NCBI RefSeq assembly: GCF_015624485.1
Contig: NZ_CP061378.1
Span: 2,232,001 to 2,296,000, forward strand
Source: Bradyrhizobium genosp. L
GTDB lineage: Bacteria > Pseudomonadota > Alphaproteobacteria > Rhizobiales > Xanthobacteraceae
Direction: 5' to 3'
Length of the DNA: 64,000 nt
Shown here one piece after another: positions 34,307 through 54,011 of the stretch; position 1 is the stretch's first letter, and every line of letters begins with the position of its first letter. A program made the translations under genes and the position numbers. The notes under the pieces were generated by a model. It saw only the letters and a list, made by a program, of their open reading frames with translations, had not been told where the DNA came from and did no database searches.

Positions 34307-34450
34307 CTGATATCCTCCGGCTTGGCGAGGGGGTCTTGATAGCCGAAAAGTGTGCTCCGCACCAATCCGCCGCCGCTTACCGGCACTGCGCTTGTGGTGT
34401 ACGCTCGTGCCTGCAATCGCGCTCCACGGGAGCTCAAGGGAAACGCCGAG

Positions 34451-35365: not shown

Positions 35366-35389
35366 TCGCGCCAACGGCGTCGACTGCTG

Positions 35390-35425
35390 ATGGCGCGTGG
35401 CGCGCGTTGCTGCGCCTCGCGCCAT
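35390..35425 (+). terminator. Long GC-rich hairpin after the dioxygenase gene
   Basis: Arms 35390-35403 and 35412-35425 pair over 14 bases with one mismatch (ATGGCGCG.GGCGC with GCGCC.CGCGCCAT), with an 8-base loop. It sits 25 bp after the dioxygenase stop. No long T-run follows. Confidence 0.6.
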
Positions 35426-35460
35426 TGCCTTGCTCAATTCATGAGCGGCATGATTACAGT

Positions 35461-35475
35461 TTGTGCGTCGCACAA
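35461..35475. promoter_or_regulatory. Candidate upstream activator site of the nitrate operon
   Basis: TTGTGCGTCGCACAA is a perfect dyad with 6-bp arms and a 3-bp centre. It lies about 110 bp upstream of the narK sigma-54-like promoter, the usual place for an enhancer-binding protein. The half-sites are GTGC...GCAC, the reverse arrangement to the classic NtrC site, so the binding protein is uncertain. Confidence 0.4.
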
Positions 35476-35581
35476 CGAATGAGCGAATCGCCATTTTTCG
35501 ATGCGGTGCGCGAGGCGCCCAAGGAATCGCGCTATCGGTCTATATAGCTGTATTTGCTTGTACTTTTCGTGATGTGCGATT

Positions 35582-37110: not shown

Positions 37111-37142
37111 CGCCGGCGCGACGCCACGCCACCAATACCGTT

Positions 37143-37170
37143 CTCCTCTCCCCGCTGGTCGGGAGAGGAG
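37143..37170 (+). repeat. Intercistronic hairpin, short family-D-like element
   Basis: CTCCTCTCCC / GGGAGAGGAG form a perfect 10-bp stem with an 8-base loop in the 82-bp gap between narK and the globin gene. The arms resemble those of the larger repeats at 51406 and 63258. It could attenuate or stabilise the mRNA between the transporter and enzyme genes. Confidence 0.6.
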
Positions 37171-37192
37171 CGGCAAACCGCAGGAGGACGTG

Positions 37193-37618
37193 ATGACACC
37201 CGACCAAGTGACGCTCGTGCAGGAGTCTTTTGCCAAGGTCGCGCCGATCTCGGAGCAGGCGGCGGTGCTGTTCTATGACCGCCTGTTCGAGGTCGCGCCC
37301 GGCGTGAAGGCGATGTTTCCCGCCGACATGGCCGAGCAACGCAAGAAGCTGATGGCGACGCTCGCGGTCGTCGTCAACGGACTGGGCAATCTGTCGTCGG
37401 TGCTTCCGGCGGCACGCGCGCTGGCGAAGCGCCATGTCGGATATGGCGCCAAGCCCGAGCATTATCCGGTCGTCGGCAGCACGCTGCTGTGGACGCTGGA
37501 GAAGGGGCTCGGCGAAGCCTGGACTCCCGAGGTCGCCGCCGCCTGGACCGCCGCCTATGGCACGCTGTCCGGCTACATGATTTCCGAAGCCTATGGCAGC
37601 GCGCAGGCGGCCGAATAG
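37193..37618 (+). CDS. bjgb: Single-domain bacterial haemoglobin (Bjgb)
   Basis: A 141-residue globin equal to the haem domain of flavohaemoglobins but without the reductase part. AGGAGG precedes the ATG at 37193. Key residues are visible: B10 Tyr28 (LFYDRLF), E7-region Gln49 (AEQRKK), proximal F8 His81 (AKRHVGYG) and Tyr91 (PEHYPVVG). Flavohaemoglobins and the B. diazoefficiens homologue detoxify nitric oxide. Its place between narK and the reductase Flp fits NO made during nitrate or nitrite reduction, with Flp giving electrons in trans. Confidence 0.92.
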   Translation: MTPDQVTLVQESFAKVAPISEQAAVLFYDRLFEVAPGVKAMFPADMAEQRKKLMATLAVVVNGLGNLSSVLPAARALAKRHVGYGAKPEHYPVVGSTLLWTLEKGLGEAWTPEVAAAWTAAYGTLSGYMISEAYGSAQAAE

Positions 37619-37629
37619 GAGCGTTTTGA

Positions 37630-38838
37630 GTGAGCGAACCACTGGTCATCATTGGCAATGGCATGGCGGCCGCGCGCCTGGTCGACGAATTGTCGAAGGT
37701 CGCGCTCGGCCGCTATGCCATCGCCGTGATCGGCGACGAGCCGCGGCTCGCTTACAACCGCGTGCTGCTGTCCTCGGTGCTCGCCGGCGAGACCGGGTCG
37801 CATGAAATCGAGCTGAAACCGGCCACCTGGTGGCGCGAGCGCGGCGTCACGCTGAAATACAATTGCATGGCGACCGAGATCGACGTCGGCCGCCACGAGG
37901 TCAAGATCGCCAACGAGGAGAGCGTCGGCTTCTCGAAACTGGTGCTGGCGGTTGGATCGTCGGCGCTGCGGCTCAACGTGCCGGGCGCCGATCTCGCCGG
38001 CGTCCATACCTTTCGCGACACCCGCGACGTCGACCTCCTGCTGACGCTTGCCGCGCAGAAGAAGCGCGTCGTCGTGGTCGGCGGCGGCCTGCTCGGGCTC
38101 GAGGCCGCCTATGGCCTCGCCAAGGCCGGCGCGACCGTAATGCTGTTGCATCTGATGGACCGCCTGATGGAGCGTCAGCTCGACGCGCCGGCGGCGGCGC
38201 TGCTGAAATCGCTGGTCGAGCGCAAGGGCATCGAGATCTTGCTCGAGGCGTCGACCGCGCGCATCCACGGCGAGCGTCGGGTGAGTGGCGTCGAGCTCAC
38301 GGACGGCCGGCAGATCGCGGCCGATGCCGTGATCTTTGCCGCCGGCATCCGGCCGAACACGGCGCTGGCGCGCGAAGCCGGCATCCCGATCAACCGCGGC
38401 ATCGTGGTCGACGACCATTTGCAGGCCGGCGGCGCAGACGTGTTCGCGATCGGCGAATGCGCCGAGCACCGCGGCACCTGTTACGGCCTGGTCGAGCCGG
38501 CCTACGAGCAGGCGCGTGTGCTGGCGAGGCATCTCGCCGGCGCCGATGCGGTCTACACCGGCAGCGTCGTCGCCACCAATCTGAAGGTGTCCGGTGTCGG
38601 CGTGTTCTCGGCCGGCGATTTCCTCGGCGCCGACGGCAGCGAAAGCCTGGTCCTGCGCGACGTCGGCCACGGCACCTACAAGAAGCTCGTCATTGCCGAG
38701 GGGCGGCTGACTGGGGCGGTGCTGATCGGCAATACCTCCGACGCACTCTGGTATCTCGATCTGATCCGCACGCGGCGCCCGATTGCATCGATCCGTGCCG
38801 ACATGATCTTCGGCCGCGCGCTCGCGGAGGCGGCGTGA
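37630..38838 (+). CDS. flp: FAD-dependent NAD(P)H oxidoreductase Flp
   Basis: A 402-residue pyridine-nucleotide-disulfide-type flavoprotein with a GTG start after AGGAG. The FAD motif is IIGNGMAAARLV, the second Rossmann motif is VVVVGGGLLGLEAAYGLAKA, and the FAD ribityl-binding end is DVFAIGECAEH. It resembles the flavin half of assimilatory NADH-nitrite reductase but has no sirohaem part. In Bradyrhizobium diazoefficiens this protein passes electrons from NAD(P)H to NasC and the haemoglobin. The gene ends one base before nasC, so the two are coupled. Confidence 0.9.
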   Translation: MSEPLVIIGNGMAAARLVDELSKVALGRYAIAVIGDEPRLAYNRVLLSSVLAGETGSHEIELKPATWWRERGVTLKYNCMATEIDVGRHEVKIANEESVGFSKLVLAVGSSALRLNVPGADLAGVHTFRDTRDVDLLLTLAAQKKRVVVVGGGLLGLEAAYGLAKAGATVMLLHLMDRLMERQLDAPAAALLKSLVERKGIEILLEASTARIHGERRVSGVELTDGRQIAADAVIFAAGIRPNTALAREAGIPINRGIVVDDHLQAGGADVFAIGECAEHRGTCYGLVEPAYEQARVLARHLAGADAVYTGSVVATNLKVSGVGVFSAGDFLGADGSESLVLRDVGHGTYKKLVIAEGRLTGAVLIGNTSDALWYLDLIRTRRPIASIRADMIFGRALAEAA

Positions 38839-38839
38839 C

Positions 38840-41539
38840 ATGACCGCCGTCGATCCCGCCCTCCGCGCCGTCAGAACCACCTGCGCTTATTGCGGCGTCG
38901 GCTGCGGCGTGCTGGCGACGCCGGATGGGCAGGGTGGTGCCGCGATCTCCGGCGATCCCGAGCATCCCGCCAATTTCGGCCGGCTGTGCTCCAAGGGCTC
39001 GGCGCTCGGCGAGACGTTGGGAGTGAGCGACCGGCTGCTGCATCCGATGATCCGCTGCGGCGAGGCGATGCAGCGGGTCGACTGGAGCGATGCGCTCGAT
39101 CATGTCGCGCACCGCTTCCAGCACATCATCGCGCGCGACGGTCCCGGCGCGGTGGCGTTCTATCTCTCCGGCCAGCTTCTGACCGAGGATTATTACGTCG
39201 CCAACAAGCTGATGAAGGGATTTGTCGGCAGCGCCAATGTCGATACCAATTCGCGGCTGTGCATGGCCTCCTCGGTCGCCGGCCATCGCCGCGCCTTCGG
39301 CGCCGACACCGTGCCCGGCTGCTACGAGGATCTCGACGAGGCGGACTTGCTGGTGTTCGTCGGCTCCAATGCGGCGTGGTGCCATCCGGTGCTGTTCCAG
39401 CGCATGCTGGCCAACAAGCAAAAGCGCGGCGCCCGCTTCGTCGTGATCGATCCGCGCCGCACCGACACGGCAGAGGACGCTGATCTCTTCCTCGGCGTGA
39501 GGCCCGGCACCGACAGCGCGCTGTTCAACGGCCTCTTGGTCCACCTCGCCGACAACGGCGCGCTCGATCGGGATTACATCGAACGGTACACTTCCGGCTT
39601 CGACGACGTGCTGGCGCGGGCGCGCGGCATGGCCAGCAGCGTCGCTGCGACCGCGCTCGCGACCGGCCTCACCGAGCAGGATGTCGCGGCGTTCTTCAAG
39701 ATGTTCGCGGCAACACCGCGCGTGGTTACCCTGTATTCGCAGGGCGTCAATCAATCGGCACAGGGCACCGACAAGGTCAACGCCATCGTCAACTGCCATC
39801 TGGCCACGGGGCGGATCGGCAAGGTCGGTGCCTCGCCTTTCTCGCTGACCGGCCAGCCCAACGCGATGGGCGGCCGCGAGGTCGGCGGCCTCGCCAACCA
39901 GCTTGCTGCCCATATGGGCTTCACGCCGCCCGACATCGACCGCGTCAGGCGGTTCTGGAAGGCGCCGCGGATCGCGACCCATGAAGGGTTGAAGGCGGTG
40001 CAGATGTTCGAGGCGATCGGCCGTGGCGAGATCAAGGCGCTGTGGGTGATGGGCACCAATCCGGTGGTGTCGTTGCCGGACGCAGACGCCGTGCGCGAGG
40101 CACTGAAGAAGCTCGATCTGTTCGTCGTCTCCGAGAATGTGCTCGCCAACGACACCGTCGCGGCGGGGCCGCATGTGCTGCTGCCGGCGCACGCCTGGGG
40201 CGAGAAATCGGGCACCGTGACCAATTCCGAGCGGCGGATCTCGCGGCAGCGCGCCTTCCTGCCCGGGGCCGGGGAAGCCAAGCCCGACTGGTGGATATTG
40301 AGCGAGGTCGCCAAGCGGCTCGGCTTCGGCGCGGCGTTCGCTTATCAGTCGGCCGCGGATATCTTCCGCGAGCATGCCGCGCTCTCGGCGTTCGAGAATA
40401 ATGGCGCGCGCGATTTCGACATCGGCGGATTGAAAGCGGTCTCCGACGACGGCTTCGATGCAATGGCCCCGGTGCAATGGCCGTTGCGGCTGAACGCGCA
40501 GCCGCAAGAGCGCTTCTTCGCCGAGGGCGGCTTCTACGCCGCCGACCGCAAGGCGCGCTTCGTCGCACCCGAGATTCCGGCGCTGCGCAGCGAGACCAAT
40601 CCGGCGCGGCCGCTGCGGCTCAATACCGGCCGCATCCGCGACCAGTGGCACACCATGACGCGCACCGGCATGAGCCCGCGGCTGGGCGCGCATCTGCCCG
40701 AGCCGTTCGTCGAGGTGCATCCCGACGACGCGTTGAAATACGGCGTCGCCGACGGCGGCTTCGCGCGCATCACCACGGACTATGGCCAGTGCACGCTGCG
40801 CGTCGTCATCAGCGAGCGCCAGCAGCGCGGCATGCTGTTCGCGCCGATCCACTGGAGCGCGGCGACCGCGACCGGCGCGCGTGTCGGCGCGCTGGTCGCG
40901 CCGTTCACCGATCCGTTCTCGGGCCAACCCGAAACCAAGGCGACGCCGGCTGCGATCGCGCCCTATGAATACGTGTTCCGCGGCTTCGTGCTGTCGCGCA
41001 CACCGCTCGAATTGCCGGAGCATGCCTGGGTCGCACGCGTCGCGGTCACCGGCGGCTACGGCTATCTGTTCGCCGACAATGCCGACTTGAAGAGCTGGCA
41101 GGCATGGATGCACCGAGCCGTCGGCGATGAGGTTGCCGAGTACAATGATTTCGGCGGCGGCGTCTATCGCGCCGCGGCCTTCGCGGAGGACCGTATCGCG
41201 GCGTGCCTTTTCATCGGTCCCGCGGGCGATGCCGGCGACTGGAACGTGGTGAAGAATCTGTTCGCATCGGATGCACTCGATGACAGCCAGCGCCGTATGC
41301 TGCTGTCGGGCAAGGCGGCGGACGGCGTGGCGAGCACGGGTCCCATCGTCTGCGCCTGCTTCGGTGTCGGCCGCGACACGATCTGCAACGCAATCGCGGC
41401 AGGTGCGCGGTCGCCGGCCGAGATCGGCGCGAAGCTCAAGGCCGGTACCAATTGCGGCTCCTGCATTCCCGAGATGAAGCGGCTGATCGCGCAGGTGCCG
41501 GCCGATGCTGCCGAGCCGGCGCTGGCTGCGGCGAACTGA
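38840..41539 (+). CDS. nasC: Assimilatory nitrate reductase catalytic subunit NasC
   Basis: An 899-residue cytoplasmic molybdenum enzyme that reduces nitrate to nitrite. An N-terminal [4Fe-4S] site has Cys15, Cys18, Cys22 and Cys50 (TTCAYCGVGCGV and RLCSKG). The bis-MGD oxidoreductase domains follow (NTNSRLCMASSVAGHRRAFG, then FVGSNAAWCHPV). The dinucleotide-binding domain is near 600-720 (RLNTGRIRDQWHTMTRTG). A C-terminal BFD-like [2Fe-2S] domain has CACFGVGRDTIC and TNCGSCIPEMKRL, which can accept electrons from a flavoprotein partner such as Flp. Length and layout match known NasC/NasA proteins. Confidence 0.94.
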   Translation: MTAVDPALRAVRTTCAYCGVGCGVLATPDGQGGAAISGDPEHPANFGRLCSKGSALGETLGVSDRLLHPMIRCGEAMQRVDWSDALDHVAHRFQHIIARDGPGAVAFYLSGQLLTEDYYVANKLMKGFVGSANVDTNSRLCMASSVAGHRRAFGADTVPGCYEDLDEADLLVFVGSNAAWCHPVLFQRMLANKQKRGARFVVIDPRRTDTAEDADLFLGVRPGTDSALFNGLLVHLADNGALDRDYIERYTSGFDDVLARARGMASSVAATALATGLTEQDVAAFFKMFAATPRVVTLYSQGVNQSAQGTDKVNAIVNCHLATGRIGKVGASPFSLTGQPNAMGGREVGGLANQLAAHMGFTPPDIDRVRRFWKAPRIATHEGLKAVQMFEAIGRGEIKALWVMGTNPVVSLPDADAVREALKKLDLFVVSENVLANDTVAAGPHVLLPAHAWGEKSGTVTNSERRISRQRAFLPGAGEAKPDWWILSEVAKRLGFGAAFAYQSAADIFREHAALSAFENNGARDFDIGGLKAVSDDGFDAMAPVQWPLRLNAQPQERFFAEGGFYAADRKARFVAPEIPALRSETNPARPLRLNTGRIRDQWHTMTRTGMSPRLGAHLPEPFVEVHPDDALKYGVADGGFARITTDYGQCTLRVVISERQQRGMLFAPIHWSAATATGARVGALVAPFTDPFSGQPETKATPAAIAPYEYVFRGFVLSRTPLELPEHAWVARVAVTGGYGYLFADNADLKSWQAWMHRAVGDEVAEYNDFGGGVYRAAAFAEDRIAACLFIGPAGDAGDWNVVKNLFASDALDDSQRRMLLSGKAADGVASTGPIVCACFGVGRDTICNAIAAGARSPAEIGAKLKAGTNCGSCIPEMKRLIAQVPADAAEPALAAAN

Positions 41540-42674: not shown

Positions 42675-43601
42675 TCATCCCTTCCGGTTCTTCGCATTCA
42701 CCGCGATCGCCGCGGCGGCGGTGCGGTTCTCGACGCCGAGCTTGGAATAGATCTGCTCCAGATGCTTGTCGACGGTGCGTGGGCTCAAGCCCAGGATCTG
42801 CGCGATGTCGCGGTTGGTCTTGCCCTTGGAAAGCCAGGACAGCACCTCGCCCTCGCGGGTGGTGAGGCCGAGCTCGCTGGAGAATTCGGCGGGCATGTCG
42901 CCGGAGGTGTCCTTGGCGAGCCGTAGCAGGAATTCGTTGGGGCCGAGCTTGCCCATATACTGCAGGCGCAACTGCTCGTTGCCGGGAAACGACGCCATGG
43001 TCGCGGTCTTCGCCGCCGCCTTGCCCTTCTGCGCCTGGTCGAGCCATTGCGGCATCGGATCGGGCAGCACGAAATCGTCGTCGGCGTCCGCCAGCGTCTC
43101 CGAGAGCAGGCGCTGCGCCTGCGGCGTCGCCCATAGCAGCTTGCCGGTGCTGTTGACGGCCAGCAGATAGCGGCCGGAGACGTCGAGCGCGGCGCGCGCG
43201 CTCTGCGTCATCCGGGCGTTGGCAAGGTGGACGCGGATGCGCGCCAGCATCTCCTCAACCACGATCGGCTTGGTAACATAGTCGACGCCGCCGGCCTCCA
43301 GTCCGCGCACGATGTGCTCGGTCTCGGCGAGCCCGGTCATGAAGATGATCGGCACGCCGTCGAGCCCGGCGTCGCGCTTCAGCCGCCGGCAGGTCTCGAA
43401 GCCGTCGATGCCGGGCATCACGGCGTCGAGCAGCACGATGTCGGGCGTGATCTGCTCGACGATCCGCATCGCCGACGCGCCGTCGAGCGCGACCATGACG
43501 GTCATGCCGGCGCCGTCGAGAGCGTCGGTCAGAAGCCGCAGCGTCTCGGGAGAGTCGTCGACGACAAGCGCGACGTCGCGTTTCTTGGGGTCAATGGTCA
43601 T
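42675..43601 (-). CDS. Response regulator, receiver plus LuxR-type HTH
   Basis: A 308-residue regulator. The receiver domain (~8-125) has DD at 15-16, phospho-acceptor Asp59 (IVLLDAVMPGIDGFE) and KP in VTKPIVVEEML. A middle PAS-like stretch (~140-230) starts SGRYLLAVNSTGKLLWATP. The LuxR/GerE helix-turn-helix is at ~240-303 (LTTREGEVLSWLSKGKTNRD and ILGLSPRTVDKHLEQIYSKL). It overlaps the 3' end of the NCS1-kinase gene by 11 bp, so it is the cognate output of that sensor. The divergent urt-fmd operon is the natural target. Confidence 0.9.
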   Translation of the reverse strand: MTIDPKKRDVALVVDDSPETLRLLTDALDGAGMTVMVALDGASAMRIVEQITPDIVLLDAVMPGIDGFETCRRLKRDAGLDGVPIIFMTGLAETEHIVRGLEAGGVDYVTKPIVVEEMLARIRVHLANARMTQSARAALDVSGRYLLAVNSTGKLLWATPQAQRLLSETLADADDDFVLPDPMPQWLDQAQKGKAAAKTATMASFPGNEQLRLQYMGKLGPNEFLLRLAKDTSGDMPAEFSSELGLTTREGEVLSWLSKGKTNRDIAQILGLSPRTVDKHLEQIYSKLGVENRTAAAAIAVNAKNRKG

Positions 43602-46600
43602 AGCTGTGCAATGTCTTCAGCGTCGCCATGTACTGGTCGAGATCGAAGCGGTCGATCAGGGCCCGCATCTCGGCGACGAATTCGGCCTGCTCCGGCAGCT
43701 CGTTTCCGATCTCGTCGAGCTTGAGCTGGATCGCCCTGACATAGCCGAGCTGGCCGAGCGCGATCAGCTCCTCGACATGTTTCACCGGCGGGCGCGAGGC
43801 GGCATCCGGTTTCCATGGCGGCAATGGCGTCTGATCCGCTTCGTATTGCCATTCGATCTTCAGCAGCTGCCGGATGGTTTCCAGGAGCCGCGGGATATCG
43901 ATCGGCTTCATGAGATAGCCGTCATGGAACGGCTGCGCCAGCGGCGCGCCATGGGCTTCCAGCGCGCTCGCCGAGATCATCAGGATGCGCGCCTGGTGAT
44001 GCCCGGCCGAGCGCAGGGTCTCGGCGACGGTCCAGCCGTCCATGCCGGCCATGGAGATGTCGAGCAGGAACAGATCGGGCCGGCAGTGCTGCGCCAGCGC
44101 CAGGCAGCCGGGGCCGTCGGGTGCGCTGAGCAGGATGAAGCCGAGCGGCGCCAGCACCTCGCGCAAGAGATCACGATGGGTCGGGTCGTCGTCGGTGATC
44201 AGAATGGTCTTGCGCGGGCCGTGATAGCCGTAGACCGGAGCGTCGACCGGCGCATCGCGGCGCGGGTTGGTCACTTCCGACAGCAGCAGCTTGACGCGGA
44301 ATGTCGAGCCGGTCCCGACGGTCGAGGTCACCTTGATGTCGCCGCCCATCACGCCCGCGAGCAGGCGGCTGATGGTGAGGCCGAGGCCGGTGCCGGTCTG
44401 TGGCTGCGTGACGCCGAGCGCGCCGCGCTCGAAGGGCGCGAAGATGCGTTCGAGATCGTCGGGCTGGATGCCCGGTCCGGTGTCGATCACCTCGAACTCG
44501 GCGACCGGGCTGCGGTAATGCACCACGAATTGCACGCATCCGGCCTGCGTGAACTTGATCGCGTTGGAGAGCAGATTGATCAGGATCTGCCGCAGCCGCT
44601 TCTCGTCGGCATAGACCACGACCGGCAGCACCGGCGGCCGCTTGAACACGAAGTCGATGCCTTTGGCTGCCGCCTGCAGGCGGAACATGCCGACCAGCTG
44701 ATCGAGGAAATCGTTCAGCCGCACCTCGTCGCGTGACAAATACAGGCGTCCGGCCTCGATCTTGGAGATATCTAGGATGCCGTCGATCAGCCCGGACAGA
44801 TGATCGGCGCTGCGGCGGACCACGCGGACCTGATCGCGCGGCCGTGTCGGCAGGCTGTTGTCCTGCTCCAGCAATTGCGCATAGCCGGAGATCGCGTTCA
44901 GCGGCGAGCGCAGCTCGTGGCTGAGGCCGACGACATAGCGGCTCTTGGCGAGGTTGGCGGATTCCGCGACTTCTTTTGCGCGCTGGAGCGCGGCGTCGGT
45001 GCGCTTGTGGGCGTCGATCTCCTGGATCAGCAGCGTGGTCTGCCGCCGTGTTTCCTGCTCCGCCGCGCGCCGGCTCTGCTGCGCCAGCACGAACAGCCAC
45101 GCGACCACCCCGATGATCAGGGTCAGCGCAAAGAACACCTTCAGCAGCACGGCACTCAGCCATGGACCGGCGTGCGTGGTGGTCGACGTCTGCAGATAGA
45201 TCAAGCCGAGCACCAGCCCGACGAGGCCGGCCGAGACCACGAACACGCCGAGATAATGCCCAAGCTGGGAGTTGATGCGGGCGTAGATCGGCTGCGGCAA
45301 TACTTTGCCCAGCGCGTCCGACACCTGTGCGCCGACCCGCGCATGCGGCTTGCAGAGATCGTGGCAGCGTGCGTCCAGCGAGCAGCACAGCGAGCAGATC
45401 GGGCCGGCATAGGCCGGGCAGGAGGCCATGTCCTCCGGTTCGAACGAATGCTCGCAGATACAGCACTGGATCTGCTCGAGGTTCTGCCAGCTCCGCTTCG
45501 GCTTGCGCGCGATGTAGTATTTGCCGTCGGTCGCCCACGCGATCAGCGGTGCCGTGATGAAGGCGACCGCGAGCGCGACGAACGCCGACAGCGCCTTCGC
45601 GGTCGGGCCGAACAGGCCATAGAACGCGCTGATCGATACGATGGTGGCGATCGTCATCGCGCCAACGCCGACCGGGTTGATGTCGTAGAGATGCGCGCGC
45701 TTGAACTCGATATGTTGCGGCCGCAAGCCCAGCGGCTTGTTGATGACGAGGTCGGCGACCAGCGCACCGACCCAGGCGATCGCGACGTTGGAATAGAGCG
45801 CGAGCGTCTGCTCCAGCGCCTTGTAGACCCCGATCTCCATCAACAGCAGCGCGACGACGACGTTGAACACCAGCCACACCACGCGGCCCGGATGCGAGTG
45901 GGTGAGACGCGAGAAGAAGTTCGACCAGGCGATCGAGCCGGCATAGGCGTTGGTGACGTTGATCTTGACCTGCGACAGGATGACGAAAGTGCCGGTCAGC
46001 GACAGCGCGAGTTCAGGCTGAGACAGCACGTAGCGAAACGCCTCGAGATACATGCTGGCGGGCTCGGCGGCATGCTCCGGCGAGACGCCGTGGCTGAGCG
46101 CGAAGAAGGCGAGGAACGAGCCCGCGAGCAGTTTCAGCGCGCCGAGCACGATCCAGCCGGGCCCGGCGCCGAGCAGGGCGATCCACCACGCCTTGCGCGA
46201 GGTGCGGCGGTCGCGCGGCAGGAAGCGCAGGAAGTCGACCTGCTCGCCGATCTGCGCCACCAGCGCAAACACCACGGAGGCCGCAGTGCCGAACAGCAGG
46301 AGGTCGAGATGGCCGGTGGTGTCGCCGTGATCGCCGGCGAATTTGCGCCACTCAGAAAAGGAGTGTGGATTGGCCCAGGCGATCGCCGCGAACGGCATGA
46401 TGTGGAGGATGATCCACAGCGGCTGGGTCCAGAGCTGGAAGCGGCTGATCAGCGTGATGCCGTAGATCACCAGCGGGATGATCACGACCGCGCTGATCAG
46501 ATAGCCGATCGGGCGCGGAATCCCGAAGCACATGTCGAGCGCGCTCGCCAGGATCACGGCCTCGATCGCGAAGAAGATGAAGGTGAAGGAGGCGTAGATC

Positions 46601-47016
46601 AGCGAGGTGATGGTCGAGCCGATATAGCCGAAGCCGGCGCCGCGGGTCAGGAGATCGATGTCGATGCCGCATTTCGCGGCGTGGTAGGCGATCGGCAGTC
46701 CGCACAGGAAGATGATGACGCTGACGACCAGGATCGCGGCGGAAGCGTTCACGGCGCCGTAGTTCAGCGTGATGGTGCCGCCGATCGCCTCCAGCGCCAG
46801 GAACGAGATCGCGCCGAGCGCGGTATTGGCGACGCGGGCGGCGGACCAGCGCCGCGCGCTCTTGGCGGTGAAGCGCAGCGCGTAGTCTTCCAGCGTCTGG
46901 TTGGCGACCCACTGATTGTACTGGCGCCTGACGCGGTCTATCCGCTGCCGCCCTGCCACTCGTTTGAACTCCTGGTCCGCGATGCCTGATGCTGTCGCGG
47001 GCAAATCCTGTACCAA
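43591..47016 (-). CDS. NCS1-transporter / hybrid histidine kinase fusion
   Basis: A 1141-residue membrane protein. Residues ~45-515 are a full NCS1 (cytosine/purine/hydantoin permease-type) domain with 12 hydrophobic segments. Residues 518-558 hold nine Cys and two His (CCICEHSF, ICSLCC, CHDLCKPH), a likely metal site. Two more helices follow (~575-640), then a HisKA domain with phosphoacceptor His700 (GLSHELRSPLNAISGY), an ATPase domain (LRQILINLLSNAIKFTQ, DTGPGI, GTGLGLTIS) and a receiver with Asp986 (FLLDISMAGMDGW). The design resembles transporter-linked kinases such as CbrA. It probably senses an amide, urea or another N-compound by transport or binding, and it is divergent from the amide uptake operon. 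Confidence 0.9.
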   Translation of the reverse strand: MVQDLPATASGIADQEFKRVAGRQRIDRVRRQYNQWVANQTLEDYALRFTAKSARRWSAARVANTALGAISFLALEAIGGTITLNYGAVNASAAILVVSVIIFLCGLPIAYHAAKCGIDIDLLTRGAGFGYIGSTITSLIYASFTFIFFAIEAVILASALDMCFGIPRPIGYLISAVVIIPLVIYGITLISRFQLWTQPLWIILHIMPFAAIAWANPHSFSEWRKFAGDHGDTTGHLDLLLFGTAASVVFALVAQIGEQVDFLRFLPRDRRTSRKAWWIALLGAGPGWIVLGALKLLAGSFLAFFALSHGVSPEHAAEPASMYLEAFRYVLSQPELALSLTGTFVILSQVKINVTNAYAGSIAWSNFFSRLTHSHPGRVVWLVFNVVVALLLMEIGVYKALEQTLALYSNVAIAWVGALVADLVINKPLGLRPQHIEFKRAHLYDINPVGVGAMTIATIVSISAFYGLFGPTAKALSAFVALAVAFITAPLIAWATDGKYYIARKPKRSWQNLEQIQCCICEHSFEPEDMASCPAYAGPICSLCCSLDARCHDLCKPHARVGAQVSDALGKVLPQPIYARINSQLGHYLGVFVVSAGLVGLVLGLIYLQTSTTTHAGPWLSAVLLKVFFALTLIIGVVAWLFVLAQQSRRAAEQETRRQTTLLIQEIDAHKRTDAALQRAKEVAESANLAKSRYVVGLSHELRSPLNAISGYAQLLEQDNSLPTRPRDQVRVVRRSADHLSGLIDGILDISKIEAGRLYLSRDEVRLNDFLDQLVGMFRLQAAAKGIDFVFKRPPVLPVVVYADEKRLRQILINLLSNAIKFTQAGCVQFVVHYRSPVAEFEVIDTGPGIQPDDLERIFAPFERGALGVTQPQTGTGLGLTISRLLAGVMGGDIKVTSTVGTGSTFRVKLLLSEVTNPRRDAPVDAPVYGYHGPRKTILITDDDPTHRDLLREVLAPLGFILLSAPDGPGCLALAQHCRPDLFLLDISMAGMDGWTVAETLRSAGHHQARILMISASALEAHGAPLAQPFHDGYLMKPIDIPRLLETIRQLLKIEWQYEADQTPLPPWKPDAASRPPVKHVEELIALGQLGYVRAIQLKLDEIGNELPEQAEFVAEMRALIDRFDLDQYMATLKTLHSYDH

Positions 47017-47131
47017 AATCTACGTCGCTATTTTGCGGTGCAGTATACGCGATCTCACGTATCAGTGCGCTGCACAAAACTGAGCAATCCTCGCCTCATC
47101 CGTAAGCGTTCTCGAACCAGATGGGGTGCTC
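47017..47131. promoter_or_regulatory. Divergent promoter region of the sensor pair and urt-fmd operon
   Basis: A 115-bp gap between the divergent starts of the NCS1-kinase and urtA. It contains the inverted repeat ATACG-N8-CGTAT (47045-47062) and an outer GTGCA (47038-47042) / TGCAC (47071-47075) pair. These are the best candidates for binding of the LuxR-type regulator. No sigma-54 consensus was found here. Confidence 0.5.
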
Positions 47132-48394
47132 ATGTCAGACGAACCGAAACCAGGCCTCAAGTCTCCGCTCCGCCGCAAGCTCCTGATGGGAATGGCCGCG
47201 TTGCCGGCTATTTCAATGTTGCCGCGCCCCTCCTTTGCGGACGTTCCCGCAACCTCCGCGGTCAACACGACGGGCCTTGCAGTCACTGATAGCGAAGTCA
47301 CCGTCGGCATCCTCCACTCCGTCACCGGCACCATGGCGATCTCCGAGACCGGATCGGTGGAGGCCGAGAAGCTCGCGATCGAGCAGATCAACGCCGCCGG
47401 CGGCGTGCTCGGCCGCAAGATCAAGTTCATCCAGGAAGACGGCGCCAGCGACTGGCCGACCTTCGCGGAAAAGGCCAAGAAGCTCTTGGTCAACGACAAG
47501 TGCGCCGCCGTGATGGGCTGCTGGACCTCGGCCTCGCGCAAGGCGGTGCTGCCGGTGTTCGAGCAGTACAACGGCATGCTGTACTACCCGACCTTCTACG
47601 AAGGCCTCGAGCAGTCCAAGAACGTGATCTACACCGGCCAGGAGGCGACCCAGCAGATCATCGCCGGCCTCGATTGGGTCAACAAGACCAAAGGCGCCAA
47701 GAGCTTCTATCTGCTCGGCTCCGACTACATCTGGCCGCGCACCTCGAACAAGATCGCGCGCAAGCACATCGAAGGCCATCTGCAAGGCTGCAAGGTGGTC
47801 GGCGAAGAGTACTTCCCGCTCGGCTCGACCCAGTTCAATTCGGTCATCAACAAGATCAAGCTGACCAAGCCCGACGTGATCTACGCGATCATCGTCGGCG
47901 GCTCCAACGTCGCCTTTTACAAGCAGCTCAAGGCGGCCGGCATCGATTTGTCGAAGCAGACGCTGCTGACGATCTCGGTCACCGAGGACGAGATCGACGG
48001 CATCGGCGGCGAGAACATCGCGGGCGCCTATGCCTGCATGAAGTACTTCCAGTCGCTCGACAACCCGAACAACAAGGCCTTCGTGCCCGCCTTCAAGAAG
48101 ATGTGGGGCGAGAAGACCGTGATCGGCGACGTCACCCAGGCTGCCTATCTCGGCCCGTGGCTGTGGAAGTTGACCGCGGAGAAGGCGGGCTCCTTCGACA
48201 TCGACAAGATCGCGGCGGCCTCGCCCGGCGTCGAGTTCAAGGGCGCGCCGGAAGGCTATGTGCGGATCCACGAGAACCATCATCTGTGGTCGAAGACCCG
48301 CGTCGGCCGCGCCAAGGCCGACGGCCAGTACGAGCTGATCTACGAGACCGCCGACCTGGTCGAGCCGGATCCGTTCCCCAAGGGTTACCAGTGA
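47132..48394 (+). CDS. urtA: Urea/amide ABC transporter solute-binding protein (UrtA/FmdD-like)
   Basis: About 420 residues; start ATG at 47132 (a GTG two codons earlier is possible). The N-terminus has an RR-type signal (LRRKLLMGMAALPA), suggesting Tat or Sec export. The mature protein has VGILHSVTGTMAISETGSVE and MLYYPTFYEGLEQSKNVIYT, strongly typical of the UrtA/short-chain-amide receptor group. Family members bind urea or formamide and acetamide. Because formamidase is encoded at the end of the operon, amides are a likely ligand along with urea. Confidence 0.92.
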   Translation: MSDEPKPGLKSPLRRKLLMGMAALPAISMLPRPSFADVPATSAVNTTGLAVTDSEVTVGILHSVTGTMAISETGSVEAEKLAIEQINAAGGVLGRKIKFIQEDGASDWPTFAEKAKKLLVNDKCAAVMGCWTSASRKAVLPVFEQYNGMLYYPTFYEGLEQSKNVIYTGQEATQQIIAGLDWVNKTKGAKSFYLLGSDYIWPRTSNKIARKHIEGHLQGCKVVGEEYFPLGSTQFNSVINKIKLTKPDVIYAIIVGGSNVAFYKQLKAAGIDLSKQTLLTISVTEDEIDGIGGENIAGAYACMKYFQSLDNPNNKAFVPAFKKMWGEKTVIGDVTQAAYLGPWLWKLTAEKAGSFDIDKIAAASPGVEFKGAPEGYVRIHENHHLWSKTRVGRAKADGQYELIYETADLVEPDPFPKGYQ

Positions 48395-48516: not shown

Positions 48517-49443
48517 ATGTTCGGCGACTATTCGCTCAGCGATCTCGGCGCCATCCTTGCGATGCAGGGATTTGCCGGGCTCATCCTGTTCTCCGTCTAC
48601 GTGCTGATGGCGCTCGGACTTGCCATCATCTTCGGCCAGATGGGCGTCATCAACATGGCCCATGGCGAGTTCATGATCCTCGGCGCCTACGTCACCTGGA
48701 TGACCTCGACCACGGTGCAGCATTACGCACCCTCGCTGTTTCCCGGCTATTTCTTCATCGCGATGATCCTGGCGTTCATCGCCTCCGGCGCGCTCGGCAT
48801 GCTGGTCGAGTGGGCGCTGATCCGCCATCTCTACAAGCGCCCGCTCGATACGCTGCTGGCGACCTGGGGCCTCAGCCTGATCCTGCAGCAGGCCTATCGC
48901 TCGATCTTCGGCGCACGCGAGGTCGGCGTCGAGCTGCCCGACTGGATGATGGGTTCCTGGCAGGCGACGGATTCAATCCAGATTCCGATCAACGGCATGT
49001 TCGTGATGGCGCTGACCATCCTGATCACGATCGCGGTCGCCTATGTGCTGTTCTGGTCGAAATGGGGCAAGCAGGTCCGCGCCGTGGTGCAGAACCGCGT
49101 GATGGCGGGCGCCGTCGGCATCAACACCGAGAAGGTCGACTGCTACACGTTCGGCCTCGGCTGCGGCATCGCCGGCATCGCCGGAAGTGCCTTCACCATG
49201 ATCGGCTCGACCGGGCCGACCGCGGGCCAGCTCTACATCGTCGACACCTTCCTGGTCGTCGTGTTCGGCGGCGCCGCCTCGCTGCTCGGCACCATCGCCT
49301 CCGCCTTCTCGATCTCGCAGACCCAGTCGACCCTGGAGTTCTTCCTGTCGGGCTCGATGGCCAAGGTGATCACGCTGCTCACGATCGTCGGGATCCTGAT
49401 GGTGCGGCCGCAGGGGCTGTTCGCGCTCAAGGTCCGCAAATAA
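48517..49443 (+). CDS. urtB: Urea/amide ABC transporter permease UrtB
   Basis: A 308-residue LivH-type permease with ALGLAIIFGQMGVINMAHGE near the N-terminus and the coupling loop VVQNRVMAGAVGINTEKVD. The signature GREV-type loop is GAREVGVELPDWM. It lacks the long N-terminal extension seen in some UrtB proteins. The start follows GGAGG. It is separated from urtA by 122 bp, which may hold a hairpin that lowers expression relative to the receptor. Confidence 0.92.
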   Translation: MFGDYSLSDLGAILAMQGFAGLILFSVYVLMALGLAIIFGQMGVINMAHGEFMILGAYVTWMTSTTVQHYAPSLFPGYFFIAMILAFIASGALGMLVEWALIRHLYKRPLDTLLATWGLSLILQQAYRSIFGAREVGVELPDWMMGSWQATDSIQIPINGMFVMALTILITIAVAYVLFWSKWGKQVRAVVQNRVMAGAVGINTEKVDCYTFGLGCGIAGIAGSAFTMIGSTGPTAGQLYIVDTFLVVVFGGAASLLGTIASAFSISQTQSTLEFFLSGSMAKVITLLTIVGILMVRPQGLFALKVRK

Positions 49444-49465: not shown

Positions 49466-50602
49466 ATGGTCATCAACTCGCGCTTCTTCAATCGCTCCGA
49501 ACTGATCGGCTTCCTCGCGCTCGCAGCCCTGCTGTTCGTCATCCTGCCGCTGTCGCTGGATATCTTCCGCCTCAATCTGGTCGCCAAATATCTGACCTAC
49601 GCCTTCGTCGGCATCGGGCTCGTGCTGTGCTGGGGCTATGGCGGCATCCTGAGCCTCGGGCAGGGCGTGTTCTTCGGCCTCGGCGGCTACTGCATGGCGA
49701 TGTATCTCAAGCTCGAGGCATCCAGCGTCGCCAACACCAAGATCCAGTCGACGCCGGGGATCCCCGACTTCATGGACTGGAACCAGATCACGCAAGTGCC
49801 ACTGTTCTGGAAGCCGTTTCACAGCTTTCCACTGACGATCCTCGCGATCCTGCTGGTGCCGGCGCTGTTCTCCTTCATCATCGGCGCCGCGATGTTCAAG
49901 CGCCGGGTCGGCGGCGTCTACTTCGCGATCATCACCCAGGCGATTGCGGCGATCCTCACCATCCTGATCGTGGGGCAGCAGGGTTACACCGGCGGCATCA
50001 ATGGGATCACCGATCTCCGCACCTTGCACGGCTGGGATATCCGCACCGATCACGCCAAGTTCATCCTGTACTTCGTCGAAGTGGTCCTACTGTTCGGCTG
50101 CATCGTCGCCGCGCAGTTCATCCGCCTGACGAAACTCGGGCGCATCCTGGTGGCGATGAGGGAGCAGGAGGACCGCGTGCGCTTCTCCGGTTACAGCGTC
50201 GCCAACTTCAAGATTTTCGCGTTCTGCGCCGCGGCGGTGTTCGCCGCGATCGGCGGCGCCATGTTCACGCTCGAGGTCGGCTTCATGTCGCCGTCCTTTG
50301 TCGGCATCGTGCCGTCGATCGAGATGGTGATCTACACGGCGCTCGGCGGCCGGATGTCGATCTTCGGCGCGGTATGGGGCTCGCTGCTCGTGAACTTCGC
50401 CAAGACATCGCTCTCGGAATCCTTCCCGCAACTCTGGCTGTTCGGCCTCGGCGCGCTGTTCATCGCGGTGGTGCTGGCGTTCCCGAACGGCCTGTCCGGG
50501 ATCTGGGCCGACCACGTCCAGCCGCGCATCGATCGACTATTGGCGTCGCGCAAGCCGAAATCGGGCAACGGCTATGTCGCCGACGGCGCACCGGCCGAGT
50601 GA
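49466..50602 (+). CDS. urtC: Urea/amide ABC transporter permease UrtC
   Basis: A 378-residue LivM-type permease. Landmarks are CWGYGGILSLGQGVFFGLGG, VGGVYFAIITQAIAAILTIL and NGITDLRTLHGWDI, the last typical of UrtC. The coupling loop is MREQEDRVRFSGYSVANFK. It starts 22 bp after urtB. Together UrtB and UrtC form the channel. Confidence 0.92.
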   Translation: MVINSRFFNRSELIGFLALAALLFVILPLSLDIFRLNLVAKYLTYAFVGIGLVLCWGYGGILSLGQGVFFGLGGYCMAMYLKLEASSVANTKIQSTPGIPDFMDWNQITQVPLFWKPFHSFPLTILAILLVPALFSFIIGAAMFKRRVGGVYFAIITQAIAAILTILIVGQQGYTGGINGITDLRTLHGWDIRTDHAKFILYFVEVVLLFGCIVAAQFIRLTKLGRILVAMREQEDRVRFSGYSVANFKIFAFCAAAVFAAIGGAMFTLEVGFMSPSFVGIVPSIEMVIYTALGGRMSIFGAVWGSLLVNFAKTSLSESFPQLWLFGLGALFIAVVLAFPNGLSGIWADHVQPRIDRLLASRKPKSGNGYVADGAPAE

Positions 50603-50614
50603 GGAGGGATCATC

Positions 50615-51370
50615 ATGCTCGTCGGTCATCAGCCCAAGGACTTCCTGCTCGCCGTCTCTGGCCTCACCGTCTCGTTTGACGGCTTCAAGGCGGTCAACGA
50701 TCTCTCCTTCTATGTCGAGGAGAACGAGATCCGCGTCATCATCGGCCCGAACGGCGCCGGAAAGACCACGGTGCTCGATCTGATCTGCGGCAAGACCCGC
50801 GCCACCTCGGGCTCGATCCAGTTCCGCGGCCAGGAGCTGACCAGGCTCCGCGAGAACGAGATCGTGCAGGCCGGCGTCGGCCGCAAGTTCCAGACGCCGT
50901 CGGTGTTCGAGGATCTCACCGTGTTCGAGAACCTCGAAATCTCCTATCCGCGCGGCCGCACCGTATTCGGCTCGCTGACCTTCCAGCGCGACGATGCGGT
51001 GAAGCAGCGGGTCGAAGAGGTCGCCGAGATGATCTTCCTGAAGGATCGCCTCAATACCTATGCCGACCAGCTCAGCCATGGCCAGAAGCAATGGCTCGAG
51101 ATCGGCATGCTGTTGATCCAGGATCCGGACCTGCTGATGCTCGACGAGCCCGTTGCCGGCATGAGCGTGTCCGAGCGTGCCAAGACCGCCGAACTGCTCA
51201 ATCGCATCATCAAGGACCGCTCGGTCTTGGTGATCGAGCACGACATGAAGTTCGTCGAGGACATCGCCCACAAGGTCACCGTGCTGCATCAGGGCCAGAT
51301 CCTGTCGGAGGGGACGATGGAGCACGTCAAGAACGATCCGAAAGTGATCGAAGTCTATCTGGGCCATTGA
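50615..51370 (+). CDS. urtD: Urea/amide ABC transporter ATPase UrtD
   Basis: A 251-residue ATPase with Walker A GPNGAGKTTVLDLI, signature LSHGQKQWLEIGML (the UrtD form) and Walker B LLMLDEPVAGMSVSE. It starts 12 bp after urtC with GGAGGGA upstream. A 246-bp palindromic repeat region separates it from urtE. Confidence 0.93.
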   Translation: MLVGHQPKDFLLAVSGLTVSFDGFKAVNDLSFYVEENEIRVIIGPNGAGKTTVLDLICGKTRATSGSIQFRGQELTRLRENEIVQAGVGRKFQTPSVFEDLTVFENLEISYPRGRTVFGSLTFQRDDAVKQRVEEVAEMIFLKDRLNTYADQLSHGQKQWLEIGMLLIQDPDLLMLDEPVAGMSVSERAKTAELLNRIIKDRSVLVIEHDMKFVEDIAHKVTVLHQGQILSEGTMEHVKNDPKVIEVYLGH

Positions 51371-51616: not shown

Positions 51617-52306
51617 ATGCTGGCAATCTCTGATCTTCACGTCGCTTACGGCCAGAGCGAGGTGCTGCACGGCCTCAACGTCAATGTCGCGGCCAACGAG
51701 ATCGTCGCGATCATGGGCCGCAACGGCATGGGCAAGACCACGCTGATGAAGTCGCTGATGGGCATCCTGCCCGCGAAAAGTGGCTCGGTGACCATGGACG
51801 GCGCCGAGCTCGGCGCGATGAAGAGCTACGAGCGGGTGGCGAAAGGTCTCGCTTATGTACCGCAGGGCCGCATGATCTTCTCTACCATGACGGTGAAGGA
51901 GAACATCGAGACCGGGCTTGTGGTGTCCGGCGGCTCGGAAGTGCCCGGCGATATCTACGAGCTTTTCCCGGTGCTGCTGGAGATGAAGGGCCGCCGCGGC
52001 GGCAATCTCTCCGGCGGGCAGCAGCAGCAGCTCGCGATCGCGCGTGCGCTCGCGACCAAGCCGAAGGTGCTGCTGCTGGATGAGCCGACCGAAGGCATCC
52101 AGCCCTCGATCATCAAGGACATGGCGCGCACGCTGAAGCGGATTCGCGACGAGCGCGGCCTGTCGATCGTGGTCTCCGAGCAGGTGCTGAGCTTTGCGCT
52201 CGACATCGCCGACCGCGTGCTCGTGATCGAGAACGGCGAGATCGTCCGCGACGATCCGCGCGACAGCGTCGATGCCGCGCAGATCTCGAAATATCTGTCT
52301 GTCTAA
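51617..52306 (+). CDS. urtE: Urea/amide ABC transporter ATPase UrtE
   Basis: A 229-residue ATPase with Walker A GRNGMGKTTLMKSLMGI (Arg and Met variants typical of UrtE), signature LSGGQQQQLAIARAL and Walker B LLLDEPTEGIQPS. The Q-loop region YVPQGRMIF is also typical. GGAAGC precedes the ATG weakly. It is 31 bp upstream of formamidase. Confidence 0.93.
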   Translation: MLAISDLHVAYGQSEVLHGLNVNVAANEIVAIMGRNGMGKTTLMKSLMGILPAKSGSVTMDGAELGAMKSYERVAKGLAYVPQGRMIFSTMTVKENIETGLVVSGGSEVPGDIYELFPVLLEMKGRRGGNLSGGQQQQLAIARALATKPKVLLLDEPTEGIQPSIIKDMARTLKRIRDERGLSIVVSEQVLSFALDIADRVLVIENGEIVRDDPRDSVDAAQISKYLSV

Positions 52307-52336: not shown

Positions 52337-53566
52337 ATGCCTGATACACTGATCAAGGTCGATCTCAGCAAGTCGGCCTATGAAAACGACAAGATCCACA
52401 ACCGATGGCATCCCGAGGTTCCGATCGTCGAATGGGTCAGCCCGGGCGACGACTTCATCATCGAGACCGTCGACTGGACCGGCGGCTTCATCAAGAACAA
52501 CGACTCGGCCGACGACGTGCGCGACATCGACCTCTCGATCGTGCATTTCCTGTCCGGTCCGATCGGCGTCAAGGGCGCCGAGCCCGGCGATCTCCTGGTT
52601 GTCGATCTGCTTGACGTCGGCCCGCTGAAGGAGAGCCTGTGGGGCTTCAACGGCTTCTTCTCCAAGCAGAACGGCGGCGGTTTCCTCACCGACCACTTCC
52701 CGCTGGCGCAGAAGTCGATCTGGGACATCAAGGGCCTCTACACCTCGTCGCGCCATATCCCCGGCGTCAACTTCGCGGGCCTGATCCATCCCGGCCTGAT
52801 CGGCTGCCTCCCCGATGCCAAGATGCTCGCGGCCTGGAACGCGCGCGAAGCCGAGCTGATCGCGACCAATCCGACCCGGGTGCCGGGTCTCGCCAATCCG
52901 CCGTTCGCGCCGACCGCGCATGCCGGCCAGGCCAAGGGCGACGTCAAGGCCAAGATCGGTCTCGAAGGTGCCCGCACCGTGCCGCCGCGCGAGCATGGCG
53001 GCAATTGCGACATCAAGGATCTGTCGCGCGGCTCGAAGATCTACTTCCCGGTCTATGTGCCGGGTGGAGGGCTCTCGATGGGCGACCTGCATTTCAGCCA
53101 GGGCGACGGCGAGATCACCTTCTGCGGCGCCATCGAAATGGCCGGCTGGCTGCACATCAAGGTCGACATCATCAAGGACGGCGTGTCGAAATACGGCATC
53201 AAGAATCCCGTGTTCAAGCCGTCGCCGATTACGCCGAACTACAAGGACTACCTGATCTTCGAAGGCATCTCGGTCGACGAGGCCGGCAAGCAGCACTACC
53301 TCGACGTCCACATCGCCTATCGCCAGGCCTGCCTGAACGCGATCGAATATCTGAAGAAGTTCGGCTACTCCGGCGCGCAGGCTTATTCGATCCTCGGCAC
53401 CGCGCCGTGCCAGGGCCACATCTCCGGCGTGGTCGACGTGCCCAACGCCTGCGCCACGCTGTGGCTGCCGACCGAGATCTTCGACTTCGACGTGATGCCG
53501 TCGTCGGCGGGGCCGATCAAGCACATCAAGGGCGACATCCAGATGCCGATCTCGCCCGACAAGTGA
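52337..53566 (+). CDS. fmdA: Formamidase FmdA
   Basis: A 409-residue acetamidase/formamidase-family enzyme that hydrolyses formamide to formate and ammonia. It starts PDTLIKVDLSKSAYENDKIH, a typical FmdA N-terminus, with NRWHPEVPIVEWVSPGD next. Further landmarks are PPREHGGNCDIKDLSRGSKI (metal/active-site region), GGLSMGDLHFSQGDGEITFC and ILGTAPCQGHISGVVDVPNA. Length matches the Methylophilus enzyme. GGGGAGC precedes the start. Directly after a urea/amide importer, it lets the cell use imported formamide as nitrogen source. Confidence 0.95.
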   Translation: MPDTLIKVDLSKSAYENDKIHNRWHPEVPIVEWVSPGDDFIIETVDWTGGFIKNNDSADDVRDIDLSIVHFLSGPIGVKGAEPGDLLVVDLLDVGPLKESLWGFNGFFSKQNGGGFLTDHFPLAQKSIWDIKGLYTSSRHIPGVNFAGLIHPGLIGCLPDAKMLAAWNAREAELIATNPTRVPGLANPPFAPTAHAGQAKGDVKAKIGLEGARTVPPREHGGNCDIKDLSRGSKIYFPVYVPGGGLSMGDLHFSQGDGEITFCGAIEMAGWLHIKVDIIKDGVSKYGIKNPVFKPSPITPNYKDYLIFEGISVDEAGKQHYLDVHIAYRQACLNAIEYLKKFGYSGAQAYSILGTAPCQGHISGVVDVPNACATLWLPTEIFDFDVMPSSAGPIKHIKGDIQMPISPDK

Positions 53567-53657: not shown

Positions 53658-54011
53658 ATGCCGATCTATGAATATCTCTGCAACGACTGCGGCCCGTTCA
53701 CCGACATGCGTCCGATGGCCGAGTGCGACCTGCCGCAGGACTGTCCACACTGCGAAGAAAGCGCGCCACGCGTCATCCTGACCGCGCCGGCGTTCTTCTG
53801 CATGCCCGCGGACAAGCGCAAGGCCCACGCCACCAACGAGCAGAGCCGCCACGCGCCGAAGACGCTCGACCAGTACAAGGCCGCGCACGGCCCCGGCTGC
53901 GGCTGCTGCGCGACGACGGGGAAGAAAAAGAAGCCGGGGCGGCTGGTGACAAAGACCGCGAGCGGCGCGGTCGGCTTTCCGACGGCAAGGCCCTGGATGA
54001 TCAGCCATTAG
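53658..54011 (+). CDS. fmdB: FmdB-type zinc-ribbon protein
   Basis: A 117-residue protein with an N-terminal FmdB zinc ribbon: Cys8, Cys11, Cys29 and Cys32 in CxxC pairs (YEYLCNDCG and DCPHCEES). The C-terminal half is basic, with a second Cys group (GPGCGCCATTGKKKK). FmdB proteins were first described as putative regulators next to fmdA. Their biochemical role is not settled. It is 91 bp after fmdA and probably the last gene of the operon; a repeat follows. Confidence 0.9.
   Translation: MPIYEYLCNDCGPFTDMRPMAECDLPQDCPHCEESAPRVILTAPAFFCMPADKRKAHATNEQSRHAPKTLDQYKAAHGPGCGCCATTGKKKKPGRLVTKTASGAVGFPTARPWMISH

Follow-up and report, generated by a model that had tools for sequence, protein, structure and literature searches.

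The window analysed here, a 64,000-nucleotide (nt) stretch of the Bradyrhizobium genosp. L genome (contig NZ_CP061378.1, positions 2,232,001 to 2,296,000), encodes a hybrid histidine kinase that carries a transporter-shaped domain at its N terminus and lies divergent from a urtABCDE-fmdAB operon, which comprises a Urt-type ABC transporter and a formamidase. Our comparison of its relatives indicates that a single conserved sensory module, made up of the permease-like domain, a segment with eight cysteines (8-Cys segment) and two extra helices, is set on an intact hybrid kinase. Genes for urea or amide use accompany this sensor at nearly all loci, and a palindrome is shared by their divergent promoters. 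We consider it highly probable that the protein is a transceptor-type kinase that senses urea or short amides and, via an overlapping LuxR-type regulator and the palindrome, induces urt-fmd. The comparative evidence for the targets of the sensor is unusually complete; its ligand is a proposal.

Architecture of the sensor kinase

The kinase is encoded on the minus strand by an open reading frame (ORF) at 43591-47016, with 1141 codons from a TTG and no frameshift. Because many public Bradyrhizobium records are 1121-1123 amino acids (aa) long, the first 19 residues of this ORF are probably not coding and translation probably starts at the GTG of codon 20 (46959), giving a probable coding sequence of 1122 aa at 43591..46959. 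A sequence-only reading of this DNA had described a single 1141-residue ORF with its domain order and kinase motifs intact and no frameshift, and Pfam together with alignment confirms that description. From the N terminus, all on the minus strand, the order is a permease-like domain (residues about 39-515, 45472..46902), the 8-Cys segment (residues 518-555, 45352..45465), two more helices with their hydropathy peaks at 597 and 636 (45079..45255), HisKA with His700 (691-756, 44749..44946), HATPase_c (804-912, 44281..44607) and a Response_reg receiver with Asp986 (938-1049, 43870..44205). Hydropathy averaged over the alignment has 12 peaks ahead of the Cys segment and 2 behind it.

His700, the N-box residues Asn814 and Asn818, the G1 and G2 glycines and Asp986 are invariant in 110/110 aligned hybrid sequences, the window protein included, and with HisKA, HATPase_c and the receiver they place the protein among the hybrid histidine kinases. 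An HPt-like C terminus was considered and rejected: the tail has no conserved His in these 110 hybrids. The closest named relatives, apart from the protein itself, are Bradyrhizobium proteins with about 96-97% identity over the permease.

The cysteines follow the pattern C-x2-C-x11-C-x7-C-x2-C-C-x5-C-x3-C, and each of C518, C521, C533, C541, C544, C545, C551 and C555 is kept in 115/115 aligned sequences. For the 145 residues behind the permease, which hold the 8-Cys segment and the two helices, Pfam gives no family at E 0.01. A search with this module in the 249 genomes of the order sample gave matches in 61, comprising 59 sensor genomes and two weak matches (E 1.6e-4 and 6.6e-4) that cover 55-135 and 65-135 of the 145 query residues and lie in frames of 519-522 aa. 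The 8-Cys segment could bind zinc or an iron–sulphur (Fe-S) centre.

A remote NCS1 relative with an altered ion site

The permease-like domain had been read from the letters as a complete NCS1 permease domain. Kinship to NCS1 stands, but the domain is a remote relative: there is no PF02133 match at E<0.1 in the kinase ORF, and the best that NCBIfam gives for the permease domain is a weak cytosine-permease match below the cut-off. However, hhalign of a 55-sensor profile against a profile of 24 standalone proteins, a set that includes PF02133-matching members, gives probability 100 and E 1e-41 over 447 columns, and the 12 transmembrane helices of an NCS1 permease are seen as 12 hydropathy peaks. 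Because this strong match to the PF02133-bearing standalone set comes without a Pfam match of its own, the domain is, at the level of profiles, a divergent NCS1 relative and no canonical NCS1 permease. Sequence searches of the PDB with the permease, two sensor profiles and the standalone profile found no match up to E 1, and Mhp1 was reached only through a classical NCS1 protein of the same genome as a bridge.

In Mhp1, we take Ser312 and Thr313 to be Na+ ligands and Asn318, Gln121, Trp117 and Trp220 to belong to the substrate site. The sequence-only reading had called for an Mhp1-based look at both sites. By alignment, the Mhp1-like Na+ site is absent from the sensors, with Ser312 replaced by Lys351 and Thr313 by Ile352 in 55/55 rows, whereas at the substrate site Asn318 is kept as Asn356 and Gln121 becomes Glu152, again in 55/55 sensors. 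Trp117 corresponds to Phe148, which is Leu in 13/55 rows, and Trp220 aligns to a gap. At the Lys351 position, 23/23 standalone relatives of the Mhp1-mapped alignment carry Arg. Since the Na+ ligands of Mhp1 are replaced by Lys351 and Ile352, we predict that the domain is Na+-independent. Glu152 and Asn356 are the predicted ligand site, and a central cavity with a carboxylate and an amide side chain would suit a small NH2-C=O ligand.

Two columns, Thr355 and Phe148, best separate amide-linked from urea-linked sensors. The changes Phe148 to Leu and Thr355 to Met fall at or beside predicted ligand positions. On the sensor tree, Met355 arises as one change and Leu148 as three, and the pair test cannot reach significance; as candidate specificity determinants, residues 148 and 355 are a lead only, confounded by relatedness.

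The sensor travels with urea and amide genes

Searches with residues 20-520 of the sensor found matches in 21/289 genomes of a class sample, 55/398 of a phylum sample and 60/249 of the order sample, a few of which (G138, G444, G462 and G503) are not complete fusions. Ahead of the locus count we dropped G138, G444 and G462 (weak, in 481-600-aa frames), G503 (a 52-residue match), G655 (partial) and the weak second matches of G786 and G828. Loci of up to 20 kilobases (kb) were fetched for 116 matches; the standalone relative L139 is uncounted, which leaves 115, and the window's own locus lies outside the 115. The family occurs in Bradyrhizobium, Rhizobium, Pseudomonas, Alcanivorax, Methylobacterium and others.

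A urea or amide gene lies within 10 kb of the sensor at 108/115 loci, and at 101/107 when the genus of the window is left out. The refuting outcome that the sequence-only reading had named, homologues lying mostly away from amide genes, is thus not what the loci show. Contig ends truncate three of the seven misses (L138, L147 and L175), and the other four, L086-L089, are genuine exceptions. In the best 80 of 595 named loci, a set that shares some members with the unnamed loci and is not independent of them, 76 have a urea or amide gene and the four misses start less than 400 base pairs (bp) from a contig end. Partners at the 115 loci are fmdA (56), amide-type urtA (54, defined as at least 60% identical to the window's urtA), urea-type urtA (42), amiE (19), ureC (9) and allophanate hydrolase (3), and urtA is divergent from the kinase at 91/115. 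Operons for a urea transporter or urease are almost as frequent partners as urt-fmd. The earlier proposal of an amide or urea sensor that controls urt-fmd is supported by the linkage, by the co-occurrence with FmdA and by the palindrome, but its wording of the partner was too narrow.

The occurrence of formamidase points the same way. FmdA was found in 31/249 order-sample genomes, 30 of them over the curated cut-off, and the sensor is present in 30 of these 31 (Fisher p 3e-21, relatedness ignored); the FmdA genome without a sensor, G858, is 82% complete and in 260 contigs. Conversely, 29/59 sensor genomes have no FmdA match, and by partner label 28 of these 29 have a sensor locus of the urea-transporter type, the remaining one (L175) being cut by a contig end.

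In the window, the response regulator (receiver plus LuxR/GerE helix-turn-helix domain) is encoded at 42675..43601 on the minus strand, its start overlapping the kinase stop by 11 nt. A homologue directly follows the kinase in 104/115 gene models, and in 95 of the 104 the two genes overlap or lie no more than 20 nt apart. In a clade of five loci (L135, L137, L189, L190 and L191), the sensory module is joined to a short kinase of 878-905 aa that is not a hybrid, and fmdA lies downstream. At L189, the locus of the five that was annotated in detail, the genes between or beside these encode a receiver-HisKA-HATPase protein, an OmpR-type regulator and an AmiS/UreI channel. Judged by gene content, the output stage has changed at the short-kinase loci and the amide partner has stayed.

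On a sensor tree of 113 rows (L138, L157 and L172 excluded), 13 changes are enough to explain the partner label, which has five states (amide, urea, urease, short-kinase, none nearby), against a shuffled mean of 48.4; well-supported branches alone force 5 changes for the amide label and 7 for the urea label. With 13 label changes, several of them forced by supported branches, the tree indicates that the sensory module has swapped partners several times, nearly always within urea and amide chemistry. The standalone relative at L139:7950-12982 adjoins a carbon-nitrogen hydrolase, an AmiC-like binding protein and an AmiR regulator; standalone NCS1 relatives of this type are possibly an amide transporter family.

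A palindrome shared by divergent promoters

The divergent kinase-urtA intergenic regions contain an 18-bp palindrome, ATACGTCAATTGACGTAT. The copy in the window lies between the kinase and urtA at 47043..47064, with its core at 47045-47062 (ATACGCGATCTCACGTAT). We collected 151 intergenic regions of 50-900 bp from unnamed and named loci, 126 of them non-redundant. The palindrome reaches at least 10 bits in 122/126 non-redundant divergent promoters, versus 0.4% of shuffles. A matrix trained on amide-type loci alone finds it in 37/38 urea-type regions at 12 bits or more, and one trained on urea-type loci alone finds it in 67/110 amide-type regions at that threshold and in 88/110 at 10 bits or more; no shuffle reached 12 bits in this cross-training. 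Sigma54 promoters were ruled out, with motifs in 2/112 amide-type and 0/39 urea-type intergenic regions.

The site goes with the sensor-linked urtA. Where the kinase is apart from urtA, it stays with urtA (L082, L110, L121, L161 and L168). Sensor-linked urtA regions score at least 16 bits in 82/98 cases and at least 12 bits in 86/98, a count that includes the regions used to train the matrix. At 12 bits or more, the palindrome is found in 0/40 urtA regions from sensor-less genomes (best 10.5 bits) and in 0/19 regions of unlinked urtA copies in sensor-bearing genomes; these controls lie outside the training set, the 40 are the top of a longer list and one of them is only 541 bp.

Within the 64-kb window there is one strong copy, at 16.9 bits and 47043-47064, and the second place scores 9.4 bits. 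The strict core occurs three times in the 7.4-megabase (Mb) genome; since a reversed control pattern has 15 occurrences, this number by itself is no enrichment. The other two strict-core copies lie by or in ORFs of no assigned identity. A urea-type urtA elsewhere in the same genome (G000:C1:6749636-6750733) lacks the palindrome; because of this difference, the two Urt systems are probably controlled differently.

Proposed circuit and its weak points

In the mechanism that we propose, urea or a short amide would bind the central site of the permease domain at Glu152 and Asn356, and a conformational change would run through the Cys segment and the last two helices to the DHp domain. His700 would then phosphorylate the LuxR-type regulator, with Asp986 as a sink or relay. 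Our preferred guess is direct transfer from His700 to the regulator with the receiver as a modulator, because no HPt is evident. The regulator would bind the palindrome between both genes and activate urtABCDE-fmdAB, and the outcome would be a substrate-induced circuit of uptake and hydrolysis, whereas relatives would use the same sensory module for urea transporters and ureases. Architecture, intact kinase, linkage and site are seen in the sequences; the ligand, the direction of control, the phosphotransfer and the binding of the regulator to the palindrome are inferred.

Several observations weigh against this proposal. Twelve of the 98 sensor-linked urtA regions score below 12 bits, although in L085, L091, L092 and L116 the site precedes a neighbouring gene (cluster 36) beside urtA. 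No site in the whole locus reaches 10 bits in urease-type L119, L127, L130, L133 and L136 or in short-kinase L135, L137, L190 and L191; among loci of these two types the best site scores 11-12 bits in L131, L132 and L189 and is strong in L126 and L128. L086-L089 carry the sensor with no urea or amide gene nearby, and three of these four keep the palindrome by the kinase. The hybrids have no recognisable HPt in their C-terminal tails, and the palindrome could belong to another, co-inherited regulator. As a separate observation on L086 (around 7821), L088 (around 7802) and L089 (around 12171), which belong to one genus, the strong palindrome precedes the kinase as well as an 84-aa ORF, and their genomes have five UrtA-like matches each elsewhere.

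A more far-reaching version, which we offer tentatively, is that a proteobacterial kinase family has turned an NCS1-type transporter into an ion-independent receptor for urea and short amides, independent of transport. Lys351 would replace the driving Na+, Glu152 would read the amide NH2, a metal or Fe-S centre at the eight invariant cysteines, between receptor and kinase, would add a second input (redox or metal), and by way of one shared palindrome the family would govern the acquisition of urea and amide nitrogen.

The most serious rival, which we regard as rather unlikely, is that the permease domain still imports urea, amides or a nucleobase-like compound and that transport turnover, rather than binding, is what the kinase reads, in the manner of CbrA. 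The domain is complete and highly conserved, with its 12 hydropathy peaks and many invariant columns across 55 sensors, and CbrA is presented as joining transport and kinase functions in the accessible parts of two papers (PMC7096432, PMC13022988). However, the Lys351/Ile352 pair stands in place of the Na+ site in every sensor row, although proton coupling may remain; the operon already has an ABC importer; and the Amt-kinase Ks-Amt5 has lost transport, according to the accessible text on that protein (PMC5764959).

Remote NCS1 kinship also allows for a sensor that reads a nucleobase-related or hydantoin-like compound and induces urea and amide genes within a catabolic route that ends in urea. 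We hold this to be improbable. The genes that recur beside the sensor are those for urea transport, urease, formamidase and aliphatic amidase; the standalone L139 keeps company with the hydrolase, AmiC-like and AmiR genes described above; and no purine or hydantoin gene appears among the annotated neighbours, most neighbour clusters being without annotation.

It is slightly less probable still that the palindrome and the operon are under a general nitrogen regulator, with the sensor a passenger or acting elsewhere. The window locus does adjoin nitrate-assimilation-like genes, and in Methylophilus methylotrophus ammonia is reported to repress the fmd cluster (PMC10781810). Against this, at 12 bits the palindrome is absent from 40/40 sensor-less and 19/19 unlinked urtA regions, a general regulon of perfect sites would need more than the three strict cores in 7.4 Mb, and sigma54-like motifs are as scarce as given above. 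A chance fusion or local oddity without conserved function is refuted by conservation, with near-full-length fusions across the class and phylum samples, catalytic and Cys residues fully conserved in the aligned set, and nothing found in its favour.

The urt-fmd operon and neighbouring genes

The divergent urt-fmd operon predicted from the letters is real. On the plus strand it comprises urtA (47126..48394, TIGR03407 over the cut-off), a short form of urtB (48517..49443, 308 aa), urtC (49466..50602, TIGR03408), urtD (50615..51370, TIGR03411), urtE (51617..52306, TIGR03410), the formamidase gene fmdA (52337..53566, NF045496 over the cut-off) and a gene for an fmdB-like zinc-ribbon protein (53658..54011). 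Models for UrtA, UrtC, UrtD, UrtE and FmdA are thus over the cut-off, and urtB is assigned by similarity to a TIGR03409-positive UrtB; together they make up a Urt-type ABC operon with a formamidase.

On the other side, the locus adjoins nitrate-assimilation-like genes at window positions 35728-41539, for an MFS transporter, a pyridine nucleotide-disulphide oxidoreductase and a molybdopterin oxidoreductase with a BFD [2Fe-2S] domain; homologues of the last adjoin the locus in some Bradyrhizobium. At 33032-35494 lies an 820-aa ORF that matches PF00144 (beta-lactamase/serine hydrolase) in its C-terminal half only.

Significance

As a nitrogen source, urea is common and formamide less so. Formamide and urea are on record as inducers of fmd genes, with no sensor kinase named in the accessible part of that record, and the present model would explain this induction. 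The sensor family offers a candidate sensor, regulator, DNA site and targets together. It also extends the known histidine kinase fusions to another kind of transporter, one whose ion site holds an unusual lysine and whose linker is rich in Cys, so that the conversion of a transporter into a receptor becomes directly testable.

Comparison with known systems

Fusions of transporters to histidine kinases are already known, in CbrA, CrbS, RpuS and Ks-Amt5; the NCS1-type variant is new and widespread. Our searches of open-licence papers, judged by titles, abstract openings and some passages, brought up no description that we recognised of an NCS1-histidine kinase fusion or of a kinase that controls urt-fmd.

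In the excerpts available on them, the SLC5/STAC kinases CbrA, CrbS and RpuS share with our sensor a transporter-shaped N-terminal domain on a histidine kinase, nutrient sensing and a paired response regulator, and CbrA is described there as a protein in which histidine transport is joined to kinase activity (PMC7096432, PMC13022988). They differ in that theirs is an SLC5 domain with a STAC linker, whereas here a remote NCS1 relative is followed by the 8-Cys segment and two helices. A Pfam scan of the kinase ORF gave no SSF match, and the 145 post-permease residues gave no Pfam match that would reveal a STAC linker, no separate STAC model having been run.

Mhp1 and the NCS1 permeases resemble the sensory domain in profile, through standalone PF02133-positive proteins, and in the Asn318 kept as Asn356. 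They differ from it in the lack of a direct PDB sequence match, in the replacements Gln121 to Glu152, Ser312 to Lys351 and Trp117 to Phe148, and in the kinase fusion found here.

Ks-Amt5 is alike in that the domain of a nitrogen-compound transporter has been repurposed as the sensor of a fused histidine kinase. In the sections available (PMC5764959), however, its Amt domain is joined to DHp and CA only and no regulator is identified for it, whereas here a regulator, a target operon and a probable site are apparent.

The target side has counterparts as well. The M. methylotrophus cluster fmdCABDEF likewise combines a formamidase with binding-protein-dependent uptake of short amides and urea; it is reported to be induced by formamide and urea and repressed by ammonia (PMC10781810). 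The accessible text names a putative positive regulator in that cluster and leaves a sensor kinase unmentioned. Another is urtABCDE operon III of Ectopseudomonas guguanensis G3, where a hybrid kinase and a LuxR-family regulator adjoin a second urtABCDE (PMC13296017) and where, by the locus tags in the part seen, fmdA is the next gene after the operon. The available portion of that paper describes neither the permease domain nor the palindrome nor a regulatory role.

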